From the NCBI GenBank assembly GCA_031271685.1, contig JAISVH010000102.1, positions 1-37,960 on the forward strand: a stretch of 37,960 nucleotides of DNA, given 5' to 3'. Under the pieces are notes generated by a model. That model was not told the DNA's origin. It saw nothing but the letters and a program-made list of their open reading frames with translations, and searched no databases. The position numbers were made by a program, and so were the translations under genes. Numbering within the stretch: position 1 is the stretch's first letter; each line of letters begins with the position of its first letter. The stretch is from Eubacterium sp. (GTDB lineage: Bacteria; Bacillota; Clostridia; Oscillospirales; Ruminococcaceae). Shown in pieces: positions 4,860 through 23,358 of the stretch.

Positions 4860-7226
4860 ATGAAAATTTTTAAGCATATACCGGCGATTTTATGCGCTGT
4901 ATCAATATTATTTTTGATAATCGTTTCATACGCGCAGCCGTCATCCGGGAGATTTTCGCATGTAAGTACTTTTGACACTTCTTATTTATTGGCTCTTTTG
5001 TTTGTTATTATCGCAATTTTAATAACTTTTGCCGTAATTATTTTTAAGGAACGGCGAAATTATAAAGAGCACGCTTACAAGCTTGAAAATATTGATCTTT
5101 TGACAGGCGAGCGCAACTTGTTCTGCTTTATTAAAGAGGCAGGAGATATCCTTTTTAAAAACAAGCGCAGTGAATACACTGTCATGCAGATAAATATTCG
5201 CAACTTTAAATATATCAACGACATCTTCAGCACCTTTGAAGGCGATAAGCTCATTAAAAATATGGCTGAGAATATATCAAAACTATTGACTCCGGGGGAG
5301 ATACAAGCTCGCACTAACGCAGATAATTTTATAATATTGCTGCATCGCACCGAGTTTGAGCAGCTTCACATATTCTTTAACGAGCTTAAGGTTTTGGTTA
5401 GGAAAAGTTGCGGCGTTACTCTTGACGATATTATGGGCGAAATTTATTGCGGCATCTGTATTTTAGAGGATAATACCGATATCAATGACGCTGTTGAATC
5501 AGCGCATATCGCTCTTAGGGTCGCTGCGGAAAAAAAGATTAGCAGCGCTTTGTATGATGAACAGATGCGCAGCGATGCGCTTAAAGAGAGTGAAATTGTA
5601 AAATCAATGTACGATGCTATGCGTGAGGAGGAGTTTTGCTTTTATCTTCAGCCACAGCATTATCTTTTAGAGCAGGATAAGATTATGAGCGCGGAAGCGT
5701 TGGTGCGTTGGCGCAAGCCGGACGGCAGTATAGTCAGCCCCGGAGAATTTATTCCGATTTTTGAAAGAAACGGTTTTATAATTGAGCTTGACCGGTACAT
5801 ATTTGAGCAGGTTTGCAAGTTTATTTCATATTATATAAACGAGGATTGGTTTGAAAATCTGAGAATCGCTGTCAACGTATCAAGAATCGATATTTATAAG
5901 CGTGATTTTGTGGAATTTTATAAACAAACGAAAAATAAATACAATATCCCTGACGGAAGGCTAGAGCTTGAATTTACTGAAAGCGTAGCGTTTGAAGATT
6001 ATGAGACTTTTCAGCGAACGATACATACTTTAAAAGCAAATGGCTTTTATTGCTCTTTAGATGACTTTGGATCGGGCAGCTCATCGCTGAATGTGTTAAA
6101 AGAGCTACCGGTAGACGCCCTTAAAATGGATAGAAAATTTTTTATCGGAAGCAAGGGGAACCTGAAACGCAACAATTCGCTTATCGCCTCTGTTATTGCT
6201 ATGGCAAGGGGATTGGATATGGAGATAGTTGCCGAAGGAATAGAGGATGAGGAACAGATAGAATTTCTCCGAAAAATAGGATGCGGAGTCGTTCAGGGAT
6301 TTGTTTATTCAAAACCGCTTTGCGTTTCGGATTTTATTGAATACGCCAAAACTTATAGAGGATTCAATAAGACTTTTGATTTGGATTCATCCCTTTGCGC
6401 GGCAAATGAAAGTTTGAAATTTATGCCGCAAAAACCCGGAATTGATGATGTGTATCTTAAATATCTCTCAACTCTTAAAAATACCGAGATGATGGTTTGG
6501 GAGATAGATCTCAGGCATGATAAAATGAGGGTGGTATCAACCGGGGGCGGCAGGTTTTATCATAAAAATGCCGCGGGAAGATTTTCGGCGGAAATTTGCA
6601 GTTTTATGGACTCGCAGGTTAATCCTGAGGACAGACAGGATTTTTTTAAAACAGTATCCTTTGACAATATTATGCTGAGTTTTGAGCGTGGAGACGAAGA
6701 GGTTTCGCACGAATATTCCGGTATGGTTTATGACGATAAGATGCTTTGCCTTAAGGAAGAGTACCAAAGGTATATCTTAACATTTTGCCGGATAGGCAAC
6801 GCAAAAGAAAAGCCGACTATGGCGCTCGCCTTTTTCCGGCGAGCCGAAGCGCGTAAGGGTGAGCCGGTCAAACTTTCGCTTGCCTTAAAAAATTTAAGCG
6901 GAACTATTTATGAGGTAAATATCAAATCTCAGCAAATGCAGCTTATACAAAACAACTCGCTCAACGGCAATATTGCCAAGGATACAAATATGGAGAGCAA
7001 AGTAATGACTTTTTATAATAAATACATTCATCCTGACGATATAGACACGTTGATAATGTGGAGTTCTACGGAGGGGCTGAATAGTTTTAAGCATTCACCT
7101 TCTGAAATCACACGCTGTGAGTTTAGAAAAAAAGGGTTTGGCGACGTTTATGAGTGGTATTGCTCCACTATAATTAAGAACAACGCCGACAGCGATTTGT
7201 TTTTGATTTTAACACAGAAAATGTGA
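4860..7226 (+). CDS. Membrane EAL-domain protein with degenerate GGDEF (likely cyclic di-GMP phosphodiesterase)
   Basis: A 788-residue protein with two N-terminal membrane segments (about residues 8-26 and 42-64), then a GGDEF-fold domain (~75-235) whose signature is NADNF at residues 153-157, so cyclase activity is very unlikely. The EAL domain (~247-505) keeps its key motifs: EALVRW (E279), NVSRIDI, LEFTES, DDFGSGSSSL, KMDRKF and VAEGIE, so it should hydrolyse c-di-GMP. Residues ~525-788 appear to hold two PAS-like sensory units, the second with YIHPDDID. The start ATG has AGGGAG upstream. It has its own promoter and terminator and lies just upstream of the type IV pilus locus, a process often controlled by c-di-GMP. 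The link to pili is inferred. Confidence 0.9.
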   Translation: MKIFKHIPAILCAVSILFLIIVSYAQPSSGRFSHVSTFDTSYLLALLFVIIAILITFAVIIFKERRNYKEHAYKLENIDLLTGERNLFCFIKEAGDILFKNKRSEYTVMQINIRNFKYINDIFSTFEGDKLIKNMAENISKLLTPGEIQARTNADNFIILLHRTEFEQLHIFFNELKVLVRKSCGVTLDDIMGEIYCGICILEDNTDINDAVESAHIALRVAAEKKISSALYDEQMRSDALKESEIVKSMYDAMREEEFCFYLQPQHYLLEQDKIMSAEALVRWRKPDGSIVSPGEFIPIFERNGFIIELDRYIFEQVCKFISYYINEDWFENLRIAVNVSRIDIYKRDFVEFYKQTKNKYNIPDGRLELEFTESVAFEDYETFQRTIHTLKANGFYCSLDDFGSGSSSLNVLKELPVDALKMDRKFFIGSKGNLKRNNSLIASVIAMARGLDMEIVAEGIEDEEQIEFLRKIGCGVVQGFVYSKPLCVSDFIEYAKTYRGFNKTFDLDSSLCAANESLKFMPQKPGIDDVYLKYLSTLKNTEMMVWEIDLRHDKMRVVSTGGGRFYHKNAAGRFSAEICSFMDSQVNPEDRQDFFKTVSFDNIMLSFERGDEEVSHEYSGMVYDDKMLCLKEEYQRYILTFCRIGNAKEKPTMALAFFRRAEARKGEPVKLSLALKNLSGTIYEVNIKSQQMQLIQNNSLNGNIAKDTNMESKVMTFYNKYIHPDDIDTLIMWSSTEGLNSFKHSPSEITRCEFRKKGFGDVYEWYCSTIIKNNADSDLFLILTQKM

Positions 7227-8759: not shown

Positions 8760-8773
8760 TCTTTTTCTTGTTT

Positions 8774-8903
8774 TATAGCAAATTGCGTAAACATTGAAGC
8801 GAATCCTATGTTCACGCTTGCCGCCAAAAGCGTTGCACTGCGGCAAAGCCGCAGTGCATATAGCATTTTGAAAAACTTAAACGTTTTATTAAAATGCTGT
8901 AAC
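8774..8903 (+). repeat. Family C repeat (copy C1)
   Basis: About 130 bp beginning tatagcaaattgcgtaaacat, with GCACTGCGG/CCGCAGTGC and GCATTTT/AAAATGC hairpins and ending aaaatgctgtaac. A second copy lies at 22568-22696. The ends (ttatagca and tgctgtaa) are inverted repeats. It begins 14 nt after the pilC stop. Confidence 0.8.
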
Positions 8904-20462: not shown

Positions 20463-21530
20463 ATGAAGGAAATAGAAATAAATCAAATTTTAGATGAGGC
20501 AAGGGAAATGGGGGCTTCTGACCTGCATTTTACCGCGGGATTGCCGCCGACAGTCAGGCTAAACGGAAAAATACAAAAGCTTAAAGGATACCCGGATTGT
20601 ACGGAGCCTATTATGATATCCGTAATAAATTCTATTACCGCGATAAAACAAAAGCAGGTTATCCAAAAGGGAGACGACGCCGACTTCGCGTATGTAAGCG
20701 CTTCAGGCATGCGCCACAGGGTGAATGTTTTCCGCCAACGCGGATATCATGCAATAGCGTTTCGTTTGCTATTGAATGAGATACCTACTCTTTTGGATTT
20801 AAATCTGCCCGCGCTTTTAGGAGAGTTCGCAATGGCTCCTCGCGGTTTGGTTTTGGTGACCGGACCGACCGGGTCGGGAAAGTCCACTACGCTTGCGGCT
20901 ATGGTTGATCACATAAATCGTGTTAAAAATTGCCATATAATCACGATCGAAGACCCGATAGAATATATCCACACTCACAAACAGTCGATGGTAAATCAGC
21001 GCGAAATACACTCTGATGTGGATTCGTTCGGCAGCGCGTTGAGAGCTGCGCTTCGAGAGGATCCGGACGTTATATTGGTGGGGGAAATGCGTGACTTTGA
21101 AACGATAAATGCCGCTGTGACCGCTGCCGAGACCGGACATCTCGTTCTTTCCACACTGCACACCACCGGTGCGGCTGAAACTCTTAACCGCATAATTGAC
21201 GTCTATCCTCCGCATTCTCAGGGGCAGTGCCGCGCGCAGCTTGCAAACATCGTAGTGGGCGTAGTTTCGCAAACTCTTATCCCCACAAAAGATGGCAGAA
21301 ATCGTGTCGCAGCTTTGGAAATAATGGCAATGACTGACGCGATCGCTTCGCTTATCCGCGACGGAAAAACCTATCAGATACCAAATTCCATCTCAACCGG
21401 ACGCGCTAAAGGAATGTTTACCCTTGACCAAAATTTAGCTCAGCTAACCGCTTTGGGCATTGTCTCGAAGGAGGAGGCGCTTGAGCGGTGTCAGGACAGG
21501 AGAGAATATGAGAGAATACTGACGGGTTAA
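20463..21530 (+). CDS. pilT: Type IV pilus retraction ATPase PilT
   Basis: A 355-residue PilT. Motifs in order: ASDLHFTAGLPPTVRLNG, Walker A GPTGSGKSTT (from residue 134, K140), the Asp box TIEDPIEYIH, Walker B DPDVILVGEMRDFETI, the His box TAAETGHLVLSTLHTTGAAET and the C-terminal AIREG-like segment IASLIRDGKTYQI. It disassembles the pilus and drives retraction. Its presence with PilB indicates a dynamic, retractile pilus capable of twitching or DNA uptake, not only a static fibre. The ATG at 20463 has AAGGGA upstream. It is separated from pilB by nearly 800 bp of repeats, so it may have its own promoter, though I find no convincing one. Confidence 0.96.
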   Translation: MKEIEINQILDEAREMGASDLHFTAGLPPTVRLNGKIQKLKGYPDCTEPIMISVINSITAIKQKQVIQKGDDADFAYVSASGMRHRVNVFRQRGYHAIAFRLLLNEIPTLLDLNLPALLGEFAMAPRGLVLVTGPTGSGKSTTLAAMVDHINRVKNCHIITIEDPIEYIHTHKQSMVNQREIHSDVDSFGSALRAALREDPDVILVGEMRDFETINAAVTAAETGHLVLSTLHTTGAAETLNRIIDVYPPHSQGQCRAQLANIVVGVVSQTLIPTKDGRNRVAALEIMAMTDAIASLIRDGKTYQIPNSISTGRAKGMFTLDQNLAQLTALGIVSKEEALERCQDRREYERILTG

Positions 21531-21534
21531 CGCT

Positions 21535-21600
21535 TGGAACTTGTTCGATAGCAGGCAACATGAACATTGGAGGAGAAATTTCCGCCGTAGATGTTTGAAT
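21535..21600 (+). repeat. Family B tail fragment after pilT
   Basis: cgcttggaacttgttcgata ... tttccgccgtagatgtttga resembles the tail (cttg..., R module) of family B. It is degraded and of modest confidence. Confidence 0.4.
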
Positions 21601-21683
21601 TATTTTTGCTAACTTGGAAAACATTTTATACCATTTGCACAAAAATCTTATGTAATTTTCTCTAATTATTTTCAACAATTATA

Positions 21684-21712
21684 TTGCATTTTTGCACTAA
21701 TTATATTATAAT
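21684..21712 (+). promoter_or_regulatory. Promoter of the major pilin gene
   Basis: -35 TTGCAT (21684-21689), a 17-bp spacer and a consensus -10 TATAAT (21707-21712), preceded by an AT-rich stretch that could act as an UP element. The predicted start near 21719 gives a leader of about 195 nt. Confidence 0.8.
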
Positions 21713-21750
21713 ATGGTAGTGGATAAATTTTTTACTATTTTCAAATAAAA

Positions 21751-21899
21751 GTATTATGGCCCATACAGAAACCGTTAACAATAAATCAAAATTATTAACT
21801 TATATATTTTTGATCACGGGCGATTTACTAAAGTTTAGCATTCGGTATTTTAATTTGAGACTAGTTTAAAATTGTTTAAGCCATAATACATAATTTTTT
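21751..21899 (+). promoter_or_regulatory. Structured 5' leader of the major pilin gene, class unknown
   Basis: GTATTATGGC (21751-21760) is perfectly complementary to GCCATAATAC (21880-21889), closing a 119-nt domain. Internal pairings include ATCAAAA with TTTTGAT and ACCG with CGGT. The right arm is followed by a run of six T (21894-21899) and then by AGGAGGG (21900-21906) of the pilin gene. This layout resembles a riboswitch or attenuator. I could not match it to c-di-GMP-I, c-di-GMP-II or another class. Confidence 0.5.
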
Positions 21900-21914
21900 A
21901 GGAGGGTAATTCAT

Positions 21915-22496
21915 ATGCTGGCAAAAATTCAGAAACTTAAGAATAAGAGAGGCTTTACACTCGTTGAGCTTATCGTGGTGGTCGCAATTATAGCCGTTTT
22001 GGCAGCTATCCTCGTTCCGCTGATGGGAAACTATCTTAATGATGCGAAAAAGAGTTCTGCTGTTTCAGCTTCAAAAACTATTAAAAACATTTTTTCCAAC
22101 GCAATGACTAGCGCGGTGAATCAGGACAGAGGCAGAGCTCCTGGTGCGGCTTACGGATACCACACTGTGCAAATTTCAGGCGGCAGGGCGACTGTTGCTT
22201 TGACCGGAGATACCGGCAACTGGGTTGGGGGAACTACCAGCCAAACAGAATATTCAAATAATATTGTGGCTCAATTGGTTAACGTTCCGGATGGCTCTGC
22301 AATTGTGGGCGTGGTAGGTTCAAACGTTATAGGCTGTGCATATATAGCCGGGGATGTCGCGCCTGCTAATATGGTAAACTTAATACAAGACGGCAGTGAT
22401 ACTAGCTCGGGTTTCCCGGATGAGACACTTATGGTTGACAATGAGGTCGCCTCGACTCAGCCCAATATTGGCGGAATGATCGTTGGTTATTGCTAA
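21915..22496 (+). CDS. pilA: Major type IV pilin (PilA-like)
   Basis: A 193-residue prepilin with the textbook N-terminus: a basic leader (MLAKIQKLKNKRG) cut after G13, then FTLVELIVVVAIIAVLAAIL with Glu at mature position 5 (E18). The mature protein is about 180 residues with a small, Gly/Ser/Val-rich globular domain and two cysteines in the C-terminal third. The start has a strong AGGAGGG at about 8 nt. A strong promoter, an optimal ribosome binding site and a terminator-like hairpin right after the gene (22528-22554) all suggest high expression, which is why it is called the major pilin. The long leader indicates RNA-level control. Confidence 0.92.
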   Translation: MLAKIQKLKNKRGFTLVELIVVVAIIAVLAAILVPLMGNYLNDAKKSSAVSASKTIKNIFSNAMTSAVNQDRGRAPGAAYGYHTVQISGGRATVALTGDTGNWVGGTTSQTEYSNNIVAQLVNVPDGSAIVGVVGSNVIGCAYIAGDVAPANMVNLIQDGSDTSSGFPDETLMVDNEVASTQPNIGGMIVGYC

Positions 22497-22527
22497 TGTA
22501 AAAAATACTGATTTAAGTTTAAAGAAA

Positions 22528-22554
22528 CTTTCCCCGTCTTTATGGCGGGGAAAG
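22528..22554 (+). terminator. Terminator or attenuator hairpin after the major pilin gene
   Basis: CTTTCCCCG (22528-22536) pairs perfectly with CGGGGAAAG (22546-22554) around a 9-nt loop. Only a short gcgttt follows, so termination is probably partial. It may also protect the pilin mRNA 3' end. Confidence 0.65.
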
Positions 22555-22567
22555 GCGTTTAATCAAT

Positions 22568-22696
22568 TATAGCAAATTGCGTAAACATAGAGTTTACTTA
22601 CATGTTTACGCTAGCCGCTAAAGCGGTGCACTGCGGTTTTAACGCAGTGTTTATATCATTTTGAAAAATGTAAACGTTTTATCAAAATGATATAAC
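22568..22696 (+). repeat. Family C repeat (copy C2)
   Basis: A 129-bp copy of the element at 8774-8903: the same start tatagcaaattgcgtaaaca, GCACTGCGG/CGCAGTG hairpin and end atgatataac, in the same orientation. Paired changes relative to C1 (for example GCATTTT/AAAATGC versus TCATTTT/AAAATGA) keep the stem, suggesting the structure is maintained. Confidence 0.8.
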
Positions 22697-22758
22697 TTAA
22701 AAAATGTCAAGAATATTATGCCGCAAAATAAATCAACAATCACGCAATGAGGTTCACT

Positions 22759-23358
22759 ATGAAAAACAAAAAAGGGTTTACGGTGGTCGAGCTTGTCGTT
22801 GTGATAGCGATAATCGGTGTTATGACCGCGATAATCGTGCCGCTCGCATCGAACGATAACGCTGCGGAAGAGGCGAATGCCAAGGCGCGCTCTTTCTATT
22901 TTTCTCTGCAAAGGGTAATGGCCGAATATAAGCTTGAGTATGATTCCGTTGAGCCTAAAGCCAGATTGGACGATCCGTTTACTGGGACATATTATCTCGA
23001 AATTGAAGCAATAAAAGCAGGTTCAAGCGGAGCGGATTATTCTAATTTGGCGGCTTATGTATTTAACAACAGCAGTGATTTTTCAATGCCTGACCCCCTT
23101 CATAATGAAAAAGGCAGAACCGGCCACGATGAGGATAAAACACTTTTTCAACGTCTGCGTCCATGCGTTGACGATACGGACGGAGGTTTTTTTTACGCTG
23201 AGATAGACGGAAATTATCGTGTTGTTCGGGTTTATTGGGCGCGCAGCGCACTGACTGCCGGAGATGGTTTCGAGGCCCAGAACAGAGTAAACGGCGTGGC
23301 TGTCGGAGCTTTTCCGTTTGGATACGGCGATGTTGCGCAAACGATATTTGGTTCATAA
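22759..23358 (+). CDS. Second type IV pilin
   Basis: A 199-residue prepilin with a very short leader (MKNKKG), predicted cleavage at G6/F7, then FTVVELVVVIAIIGVMTAII with Glu at mature position 5 (E11). The mature part is Asp/Glu/Ala-rich with no recognised domain. The ATG at 22759 is preferred to the in-frame ATG at 22747 because TGAGG lies 6 nt upstream and it gives the shorter standard leader. It follows the major pilin gene after a hairpin and repeat C2, and ends before the terminator that overlaps the rpsL promoter. It could be a second fibre subunit or a minor pilin. Confidence 0.88.
   Translation: MKNKKGFTVVELVVVIAIIGVMTAIIVPLASNDNAAEEANAKARSFYFSLQRVMAEYKLEYDSVEPKARLDDPFTGTYYLEIEAIKAGSSGADYSNLAAYVFNNSSDFSMPDPLHNEKGRTGHDEDKTLFQRLRPCVDDTDGGFFYAEIDGNYRVVRVYWARSALTAGDGFEAQNRVNGVAVGAFPFGYGDVAQTIFGS

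Follow-up and report, generated by a model that had tools for sequence, protein, structure and literature searches.

Introduction

The aprE leader of Bacillus subtilis and the 5′ stem-loop of Escherichia coli papA, which encodes a major pilin, are hairpins that stabilise their mRNAs from the 5′ end; for aprE, ribosome binding is also important. The cow-rumen-4 RNA (RF02948), another hairpin-bearing RNA considered below, was reportedly described in a 2017 paper. According to an extract of PMC3997798, mRNAs of B. subtilis are stabilised by hairpins at or near the 5′ end, and the RNA pyrophosphohydrolase RppH of this organism requires at least two unpaired 5′ nucleotides as well as G at position 2. 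An extract of PMC6200980 places pilA1, the type IV major pilin gene of Clostridioides difficile, under the control of a class-II c-di-GMP riboswitch.

Here we analyse the leader of a type IV pilin gene on a contig of 37,960 nucleotides, referred to in the following as the window (contig C95 of G000, a 2.26-Mb MAG with a completeness of 93%). An earlier note on this DNA had read the leader as an uncatalogued structured RNA with the layout of a riboswitch or attenuator. Like that of pilA1, the leader belongs to a clostridial type IV major pilin gene; unlike it, it gives no match to the c-di-GMP-II model. Many leaders of related loci resemble those of aprE and papA in carrying a hairpin at the predicted mRNA 5′ end, but differ in that this hairpin (P1) is accompanied by a separate, conserved one (P2); the likeness is one of arrangement, and no relation in sequence is claimed.

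Results

The pilin locus and the comparison set

In the window, pilT (20463–21530) is followed by a gene for a type IV pilin of 193 amino acids (21915–22496; Pfam N_methyl, 37.2 bits) and by a second pilin-like gene at 22747; the features of the leader described below lie on the plus strand unless otherwise stated. The two pilin genes are separated by a palindrome-rich element of ~130 bp (22567–22695), a dispersed repeat of G000 with 67 matches on many contigs (both strands and palindrome self-matches included) and a second copy in the window at 8773–8903.

The comparison covered 71 genomes of the genus and 394 of the order. Using the pilin protein as query on genome contigs confirmed no close relative, after which the related loci were gathered with PilT. 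The nearest named PilT relatives, at 76–79% identity, belong to four Oscillospiraceae MAGs, which from their isolate names we take to be of termite-gut origin.

Promoter and transcription start

A TTGCAT −35 hexamer, a 17-nt spacer and a TATAAT −10 hexamer (promoter A, 21684–21712) precede the leader, with hexamers and spacing as in the relatives. The strong promoter that had been credited to the gene is thus present in sequence, but a generic consensus scan did not list it. Promoter A implies a start at 21718/21719. The initiation sequence of the relatives (ACAGAAA...) is found further downstream in the window, at ACAGAAACCG (21765–21774), making 21765 a candidate alternative start. Scoring with position weight matrices built from 38 relatives gave summed start scores of 11.1 for 21765, 7.1 for 21718 and 4.0 for 21719, compared with 11.3 to 34.3 for the 38 relatives' own starts. 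Position 21765 is the best of 260 positions tested; among the 75816 positions of the two strands of the window it ranks fifth, and 21718 and 21719 rank 31st and 70th. A possible second −10 hexamer for it, TATTAT (21752–21757), falls within the left arm of the 10-bp pairing described below and has a poor −35 score (−6.2).

The −10 hexamer and the ACAG start are separated by 6 nt in the relatives, as against ~50 nt between promoter A and ACAG in the window, and an insertion of some form between the promoter hexamers and the initiation sequence is therefore likely. For the extent of the leader, given earlier as ~195 nt, the evidence divides: the hexamers favour 21718/21719, with which the proposed closing helix is retained, but the initiation sequence favours 21765, with which its left arm would not be transcribed. 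A start downstream of 21760, named at the time as an outcome that would tell against the structure, is what the 21765 candidate would be.

Pairing and fold of the window's leader

The perfect 10-bp pairing on which the earlier reading was built is real: GTATTATGGC (21751–21760) and GCCATAATAC (21880–21889) are exact reverse complements, with the arms 119 nt apart and four of the ten pairs G-C. Watson-Crick stems of at least 10 bp occurred in 11.5% of 2000 dinucleotide shuffles of 21718–21904, those that also had at least four G-C pairs in 0.3%, and those with in addition a 3′ arm ending in the last 30 nt in 0.15%. The six T had been placed directly after the right arm, which is incorrect, as ATAA intervenes; the T run occupies 21894–21899 in a stretch that comprises ATAA, the six T and the Shine-Dalgarno sequence (SD) AGGAGGG (21890–21906).

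The predicted fold of the leader as a whole (21714–21914) is no better than that of its shuffles, 41 of 200 of which fold as well (z −0.80). The sub-domain 21745–21895, a stretch chosen around the repeat, is more stable than shuffles (z −2.63; 2 of 200). In the predicted transcript from 21718 the mean probability of the ten pairs is 0.012, and they are mostly unformed because the bases of the left arm pair with 21820–21848 in a long, imperfect AT-rich hairpin (5′ strand 21720–21762, 3′ strand 21818–21878 in the minimum free energy (MFE) pairs). Forcing the ten pairs costs just 1.6 kcal/mol for the leader alone and 2.1 kcal/mol when 45 nt of the pilin gene are included, which is within the error of the model, and both folds therefore stay open; the 10-bp helix is predicted to be one of two nearly equal closings of the domain. 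Inside it, the MFE fold of 21745–21895 has a hairpin at 21772–21819 (CCGU 21772–21775 with ACGG 21816–21819, and AUCAAAA 21785–21791 with UUUUGAU 21808–21814), of which the fold of a longer transcript retains just the 7-bp part. A weak local hairpin of 7 bp followed by CATAA (21864–21881) lies approximately in the slot that P2 occupies in the relatives; its predicted probability in the full fold is near zero.

The MFE fold is paired from +1 if transcription starts at 21719, and a transcript from 21765 has its first pair at +8. The SD is predicted to be unpaired with a probability of 0.56, compared with 0.38 ± 0.15 in shuffles; for the start at 21765 the values are 0.54 and 0.41.

A covarying hairpin in the leaders of related pilin genes

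The leaders of many relatives share a common pattern: a TTGCAA/T-N17-TATAAT-like promoter, an ACAG/ACAA start, a hairpin, an CAUAAAAAA-like sequence, a U-run and the SD. The hairpin, P2, has a stem of 8–9 bp and a loop of 3–6 nt. In 26 of the 42 leaders a GGA is found on its 5′ side, and on its 3′ side a CAUAAA-like and U-rich sequence leads to the SD, the core of which begins 15–29 nt after the end of P2 in 41 leaders and 41 nt after it in one.

A script was applied to the sequences upstream of pilin-like genes, those of minor pilins among them; of 141 distinct stretches, 49 had a stem of at least 7 bp together with the tail, 47 of them distinct. Seven rows, one of them the weak hairpin of the window, were discarded on visual inspection as non-P2, which left 40 (alignment A1). 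The pairing percentage in A1 (279 of 279 cells) is biased, in that rows were chosen upstream of pilin genes and for the stem, which makes both the 100% pairing and the pilin context partly a matter of construction; the real evidence for P2 is the variety of compensated pairs. Covariation in homologous leaders, which the earlier note had proposed as a check on the RNA, is seen for P2, which is a different stem from the 10-bp pairing, as two-sided, compensatory change at five of the seven pairs with up to five pair types. The covariation score is 0.440; shuffles give 0.127 and slid controls no more than 0.091, and in the latter pairing falls to 26–51%. RNAalifold likewise recovers the stem. The loops are variable (CGCAGA, UGCG, UGAG and GCU among others), which makes a DNA palindrome a less likely object of selection.

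A covariance model of P2 (R1), run with stricter filters and with part of the candidates scored, matches 31 of the 71 genus genomes, at one place each apart from a weak extra match in G022. All 30 genus loci fetched contain a training row, so that the search is evidence for single copy number and for absence elsewhere but does not bear on additional copies. Among the R1 matches listed there is no strong one away from pilin genes; 31 of 32 loci fetched hold an A1 row, each beginning 85–114 nt before the pilin N-terminal motif, and L249, which is outside the training set, shows the P2 arrangement in its sequence. With 16 candidates scored per genome, 8 of the 394 order genomes matched, six from the same genus and two from another genus of the family. 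P2 is a compact covarying RNA element of a gut genus with type IV pilus genes, and in this analysis it was seen before pilin genes only.

Three genomes missed by R1 (G018, G030 and G093; loci L029, L030 and L195) apparently carry an altered P2 with a GC-rich stem, a CGCAGA loop and an ACGGAAAUAAAA-like tail; their first hairpin also has a similar loop word. In a further genome, G023 (L005/L214), two pilin genes are adjacent and divergent, and one of the leaders contains GTCGG and, downstream, two copies of CCGAC with either of which this 5′ strand could pair, making an alternative pairing beside the SD possible.

In the window, R1 stays at chance level within the leader even with the filters off, at 12.2 bits (21720–21736) and 11.6 bits (21863–21890, minus strand); its highest-scoring match anywhere in the window (16.1 bits, E 0.52) is outside the leader, and G000 gives no match under the stricter filters. 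Likewise, no P2 match was found in the near relatives of the window. In a tree of 55 distinct PilT sequences out of 63, G000 is placed on a long branch beside L042 (support 99/94), inside a clade of 16 rows without a P2 label, and the P2 labels are present in other clades; labels derive from R1 matches and from leaders read, two sources that cover part of the rows. The PilT of L060, from a record titled Bacteroides sp., groups among the Oscillospiraceae in the same tree, and the MAG behind it is probably mislabelled. The proposal of an uncatalogued structured leader fits many of the relatives, where it is conserved, covarying and, in the loci scanned, without an Rfam match at gathering score, but does not extend to the window, the leader of which gives no match to P2.

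A hairpin at the predicted 5′ end

A hairpin, P1, begins at +1 to +3 in 33 of the 39 P2 leaders that have a recognisable promoter (three of the 42 have none), compared with 10.9 expected from dinucleotide shuffles; the promoter hexamer lists were widened to the relatives' own for this count, which is accordingly not blind. The stretch from the predicted +1 to P2 has a mean z of −2.55. P1 was assessed by folding each leader separately, and in a MAFFT alignment (A2) the 3′ arms failed to align. L203, with a P1 region of 1 nt, counts as a miss among the 39 and is left out of the sets of 38 leaders, in which P1 has at least 10 nt. Of these, 37 have A at +1, 36 have C at +2 and 27 have at most one unpaired 5′ nucleotide. 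In view of the requirements of B. subtilis RppH and of the stabilising 5′ hairpins described in the extract of PMC3997798, protection of the 5′ end is the simplest reading of P1, provided that the RppH of these bacteria behaves like its B. subtilis counterpart, as we infer by analogy.

Among six leaders of the window's own clade, those of G063 and G020 have their first pair at +1 or +2, though G063 with just a 4-bp stem (−1.7 kcal/mol); in the other four, pairing begins at +7 or +8. The clade thus appears to carry leader hairpins of changing sequence that are not canonical P2.

Known RNA families and the c-di-GMP connection

At gathering score, Rfam returned just a tRNA for the whole window, one tRNA and no leader match for twenty relatives' loci, and no family for P2 in the loci scanned, which include part of the P2 leaders. 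Within 21500–22000 nothing credible appeared up to E 10, and a known riboswitch class was rejected on these grounds. The earlier note had seen no motifs of the two known c-di-GMP classes: neither RF01051 (c-di-GMP-I) nor RF01786 (c-di-GMP-II) has a match in the window at gathering score or in 21500–22000 up to E 10. Whole-genome searches of G000 for c-di-GMP-I and c-di-GMP-II were silent, as were the control genomes, so that these searches are no evidence of absence from the genome. An intrinsic attenuator was dismissed as well, there being no intrinsic terminator in 21500–22800.

Relaxed scans of 12 and 13 loci gave cow-rumen-4 matches in two P2 leaders, at 31.7 and 34.2 bits against a gathering score of 48.5. 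The matches span P2 and the SD, and the two RNAs are alike in the order of a hairpin, an AAAUA/U-rich spacer and AAGGAGG; they differ in that the relatives' matches are below gathering score and the window has none. GP20-a and caiA RNAs gave weaker matches to a few P2 leaders at relaxed thresholds. No description of a P2 or P1–P2 leader was found in the open-licence papers searched, and the P1–P2 leader of the relatives appears to be an RNA element not previously catalogued.

The nearby EAL phosphodiesterase of the earlier reading is a real protein, but its gene (4860–7226) lies 14.5 kb upstream of the leader. The protein has a GGDEF-EAL architecture with ADNF in place of GGDEF, and the EAL part retains EALVRW; as these motifs are generally understood, the GGDEF domain looks degenerate and the protein is more likely a phosphodiesterase than a cyclase. 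The putative link of the leader to c-di-GMP derives from this protein and from the analogy with C. difficile pilA1 (extract of PMC6200980).

Discussion

We consider, with a probability of about 0.55, that the leader senses no ligand and is a structured 5′ UTR of passive function on a presumably abundant mRNA for the pilus subunit. In the relatives, P1 at the 5′ end would make the end of the transcript inaccessible to RNA pyrophosphohydrolase and to 5′ exonuclease. The ribosome site would be left open by P2 together with the A/U-rich spacer before the SD. In the window the slot of P1 and P2 would be filled by the long AU-rich hairpin, which would pair the 5′ end if the start is at 21719 and would leave the SD fairly open. 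Such an element suggests a way, open to testing, in which a Gram-positive gut anaerobe might keep an abundant surface-protein mRNA from decay. The translational part is suggested by the position of P2, since the predicted accessibility of the SD in the relatives hardly changed with P2 (0.474 against 0.413; higher in 24 of 38), an effect too weak for P2 to be retained as an opener of the SD. Against the passive-leader reading stand the missing P2 match in the window, a leader fold that does not exceed shuffles in stability (z −0.80) and the late first pair, at +7 or +8, in four of six leaders of the window's clade; a start at 21765 would also abolish the 5′-terminal pairing.

The layout of a riboswitch or attenuator was not borne out, given the small core of P2, the A-rich spacer between stem and U-run in the relatives, the missing terminator and the accessible SD. 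It would have required a sensor of c-di-GMP, of another dinucleotide or of some other ligand, in which the 10-bp helix would close the domain and either the U-run or the SD would serve as output, and we regard it as quite improbable. A pilin gene, a long leader, a closing helix and two nearly equal folds would suit such a device, as would the GGDEF-EAL protein encoded in the window and the class-II c-di-GMP riboswitch of C. difficile pilA1 (extract of PMC6200980); yet no Rfam match is seen, the SD is not sequestered and the relatives retain just small hairpins beside it. Among the matches listed from a DNA search of the 71 genus genomes, no clear homologue of the window's inner domain appears, and none within 21765–21822 is better than E 0.016. 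To our knowledge, a hairpin of 8–9 bp with a loop of 3–6 nt is smaller than any known aptamer. As a caution, one good inverted repeat in an AT-rich leader does not make a riboswitch. A leader bound by a protein appears no more plausible than the riboswitch; one example would be CsrA, which restrains the translation of flagellin and might act on pilin in the same manner. G000 encodes CsrA, as do 55 of the 71 genus genomes, and GGA precedes P2 in the majority of leaders as given above, but the triplet lies at the base of the stem and not in the loop. The gene is somewhat commoner with P2 (27 of 31 genomes) than in genomes without it (28 of 40; odds ratio 2.9, Fisher p 0.15), though a CsrA match is absent from four of the 31, namely G013 (99% complete), G034 (96%), G072 and G078, and control by CsrA was rejected. 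Only slightly better placed, and still unlikely, is the proposal that P1–P2 is an unrecognised cis-regulatory RNA family of type IV pilins in gut Oscillospiraceae, with P2 and its GGA and CAUAAA flanks as the site at which an unknown trans factor would set pilin output, and with the window as a derived, bistable form that could alternate between the 10-bp helix and the long hairpin.

The long hairpin could alternatively be functionless, the decayed insertion of a small dispersed palindromic (MITE-like) repeat that lengthened an ordinary pilin leader; we hold this to be possible but doubtful. DNA matches to the leader turned up at a number of places in G016, G033 and G017 and at a single one in G000; they represent either copies of a palindromic repeat, ACTATTYTCAAATTA...TAATTTGARAATAGT, or fragments that resemble it. 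Matches to the repeat arm number 48 in G001, 56 in G033 and 16 in G016, against 0, 1 and 0 in the respective reversed controls; in G000 there are three, two of them in the window's leader, against two in the reversed control. With a profile built from 14 copies (45 loci fetched, 18 with the centre motif, four of which failed the trimming pattern), the two best nhmmer places in the window are the two arms of the leader hairpin in inverted order, both of them weak matches: the right half at 21827–21865 (8.1 bits, E 0.15) and the left arm at 21750–21733 (6.2 bits, E 0.58). In feature terms, 21733–21750 on the 5′ strand of the long MFE hairpin resembles the repeat arm by nhmmer and by pattern search, and 21823–21865 on its 3′ strand side resembles the repeat centre and arm by nhmmer. 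An insertion would also account for the spacing of ~50 nt between promoter A and ACAG, in place of the relatives' 6 nt. These scores are nevertheless individually weak, 3 of 1000 shuffled leaders reach the higher of the two, and a chance match of one arm would bring the other along through pairing. The leader shares with the repeats of G001, G016 and G033 the inverted arms and the centre, but the similarity is weak and the arms are spread by ~75 nt more, being ~100 nt apart in the leader and 23–24 nt in the repeat; moreover, the arms enclose ACAGAAACCG, an arrangement that a single simple insertion would leave unaccounted for. The leader was also considered as a high-copy repeat of G000 itself and rejected, as it has there a single full match and weak partial ones, e.g. 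on G000:C147. A small palindromic repeat of G001, G016, G033 and other genomes (L253–L257, L293–L332), the second repeat noted here after the ~130-bp element between the pilin genes, occurs in a single-hairpin form of ~57–60 bp and in a longer two-hairpin form ending in ATAGTAT; copies are plentiful in G001 and G033, but most of the other genus genomes have few or none.
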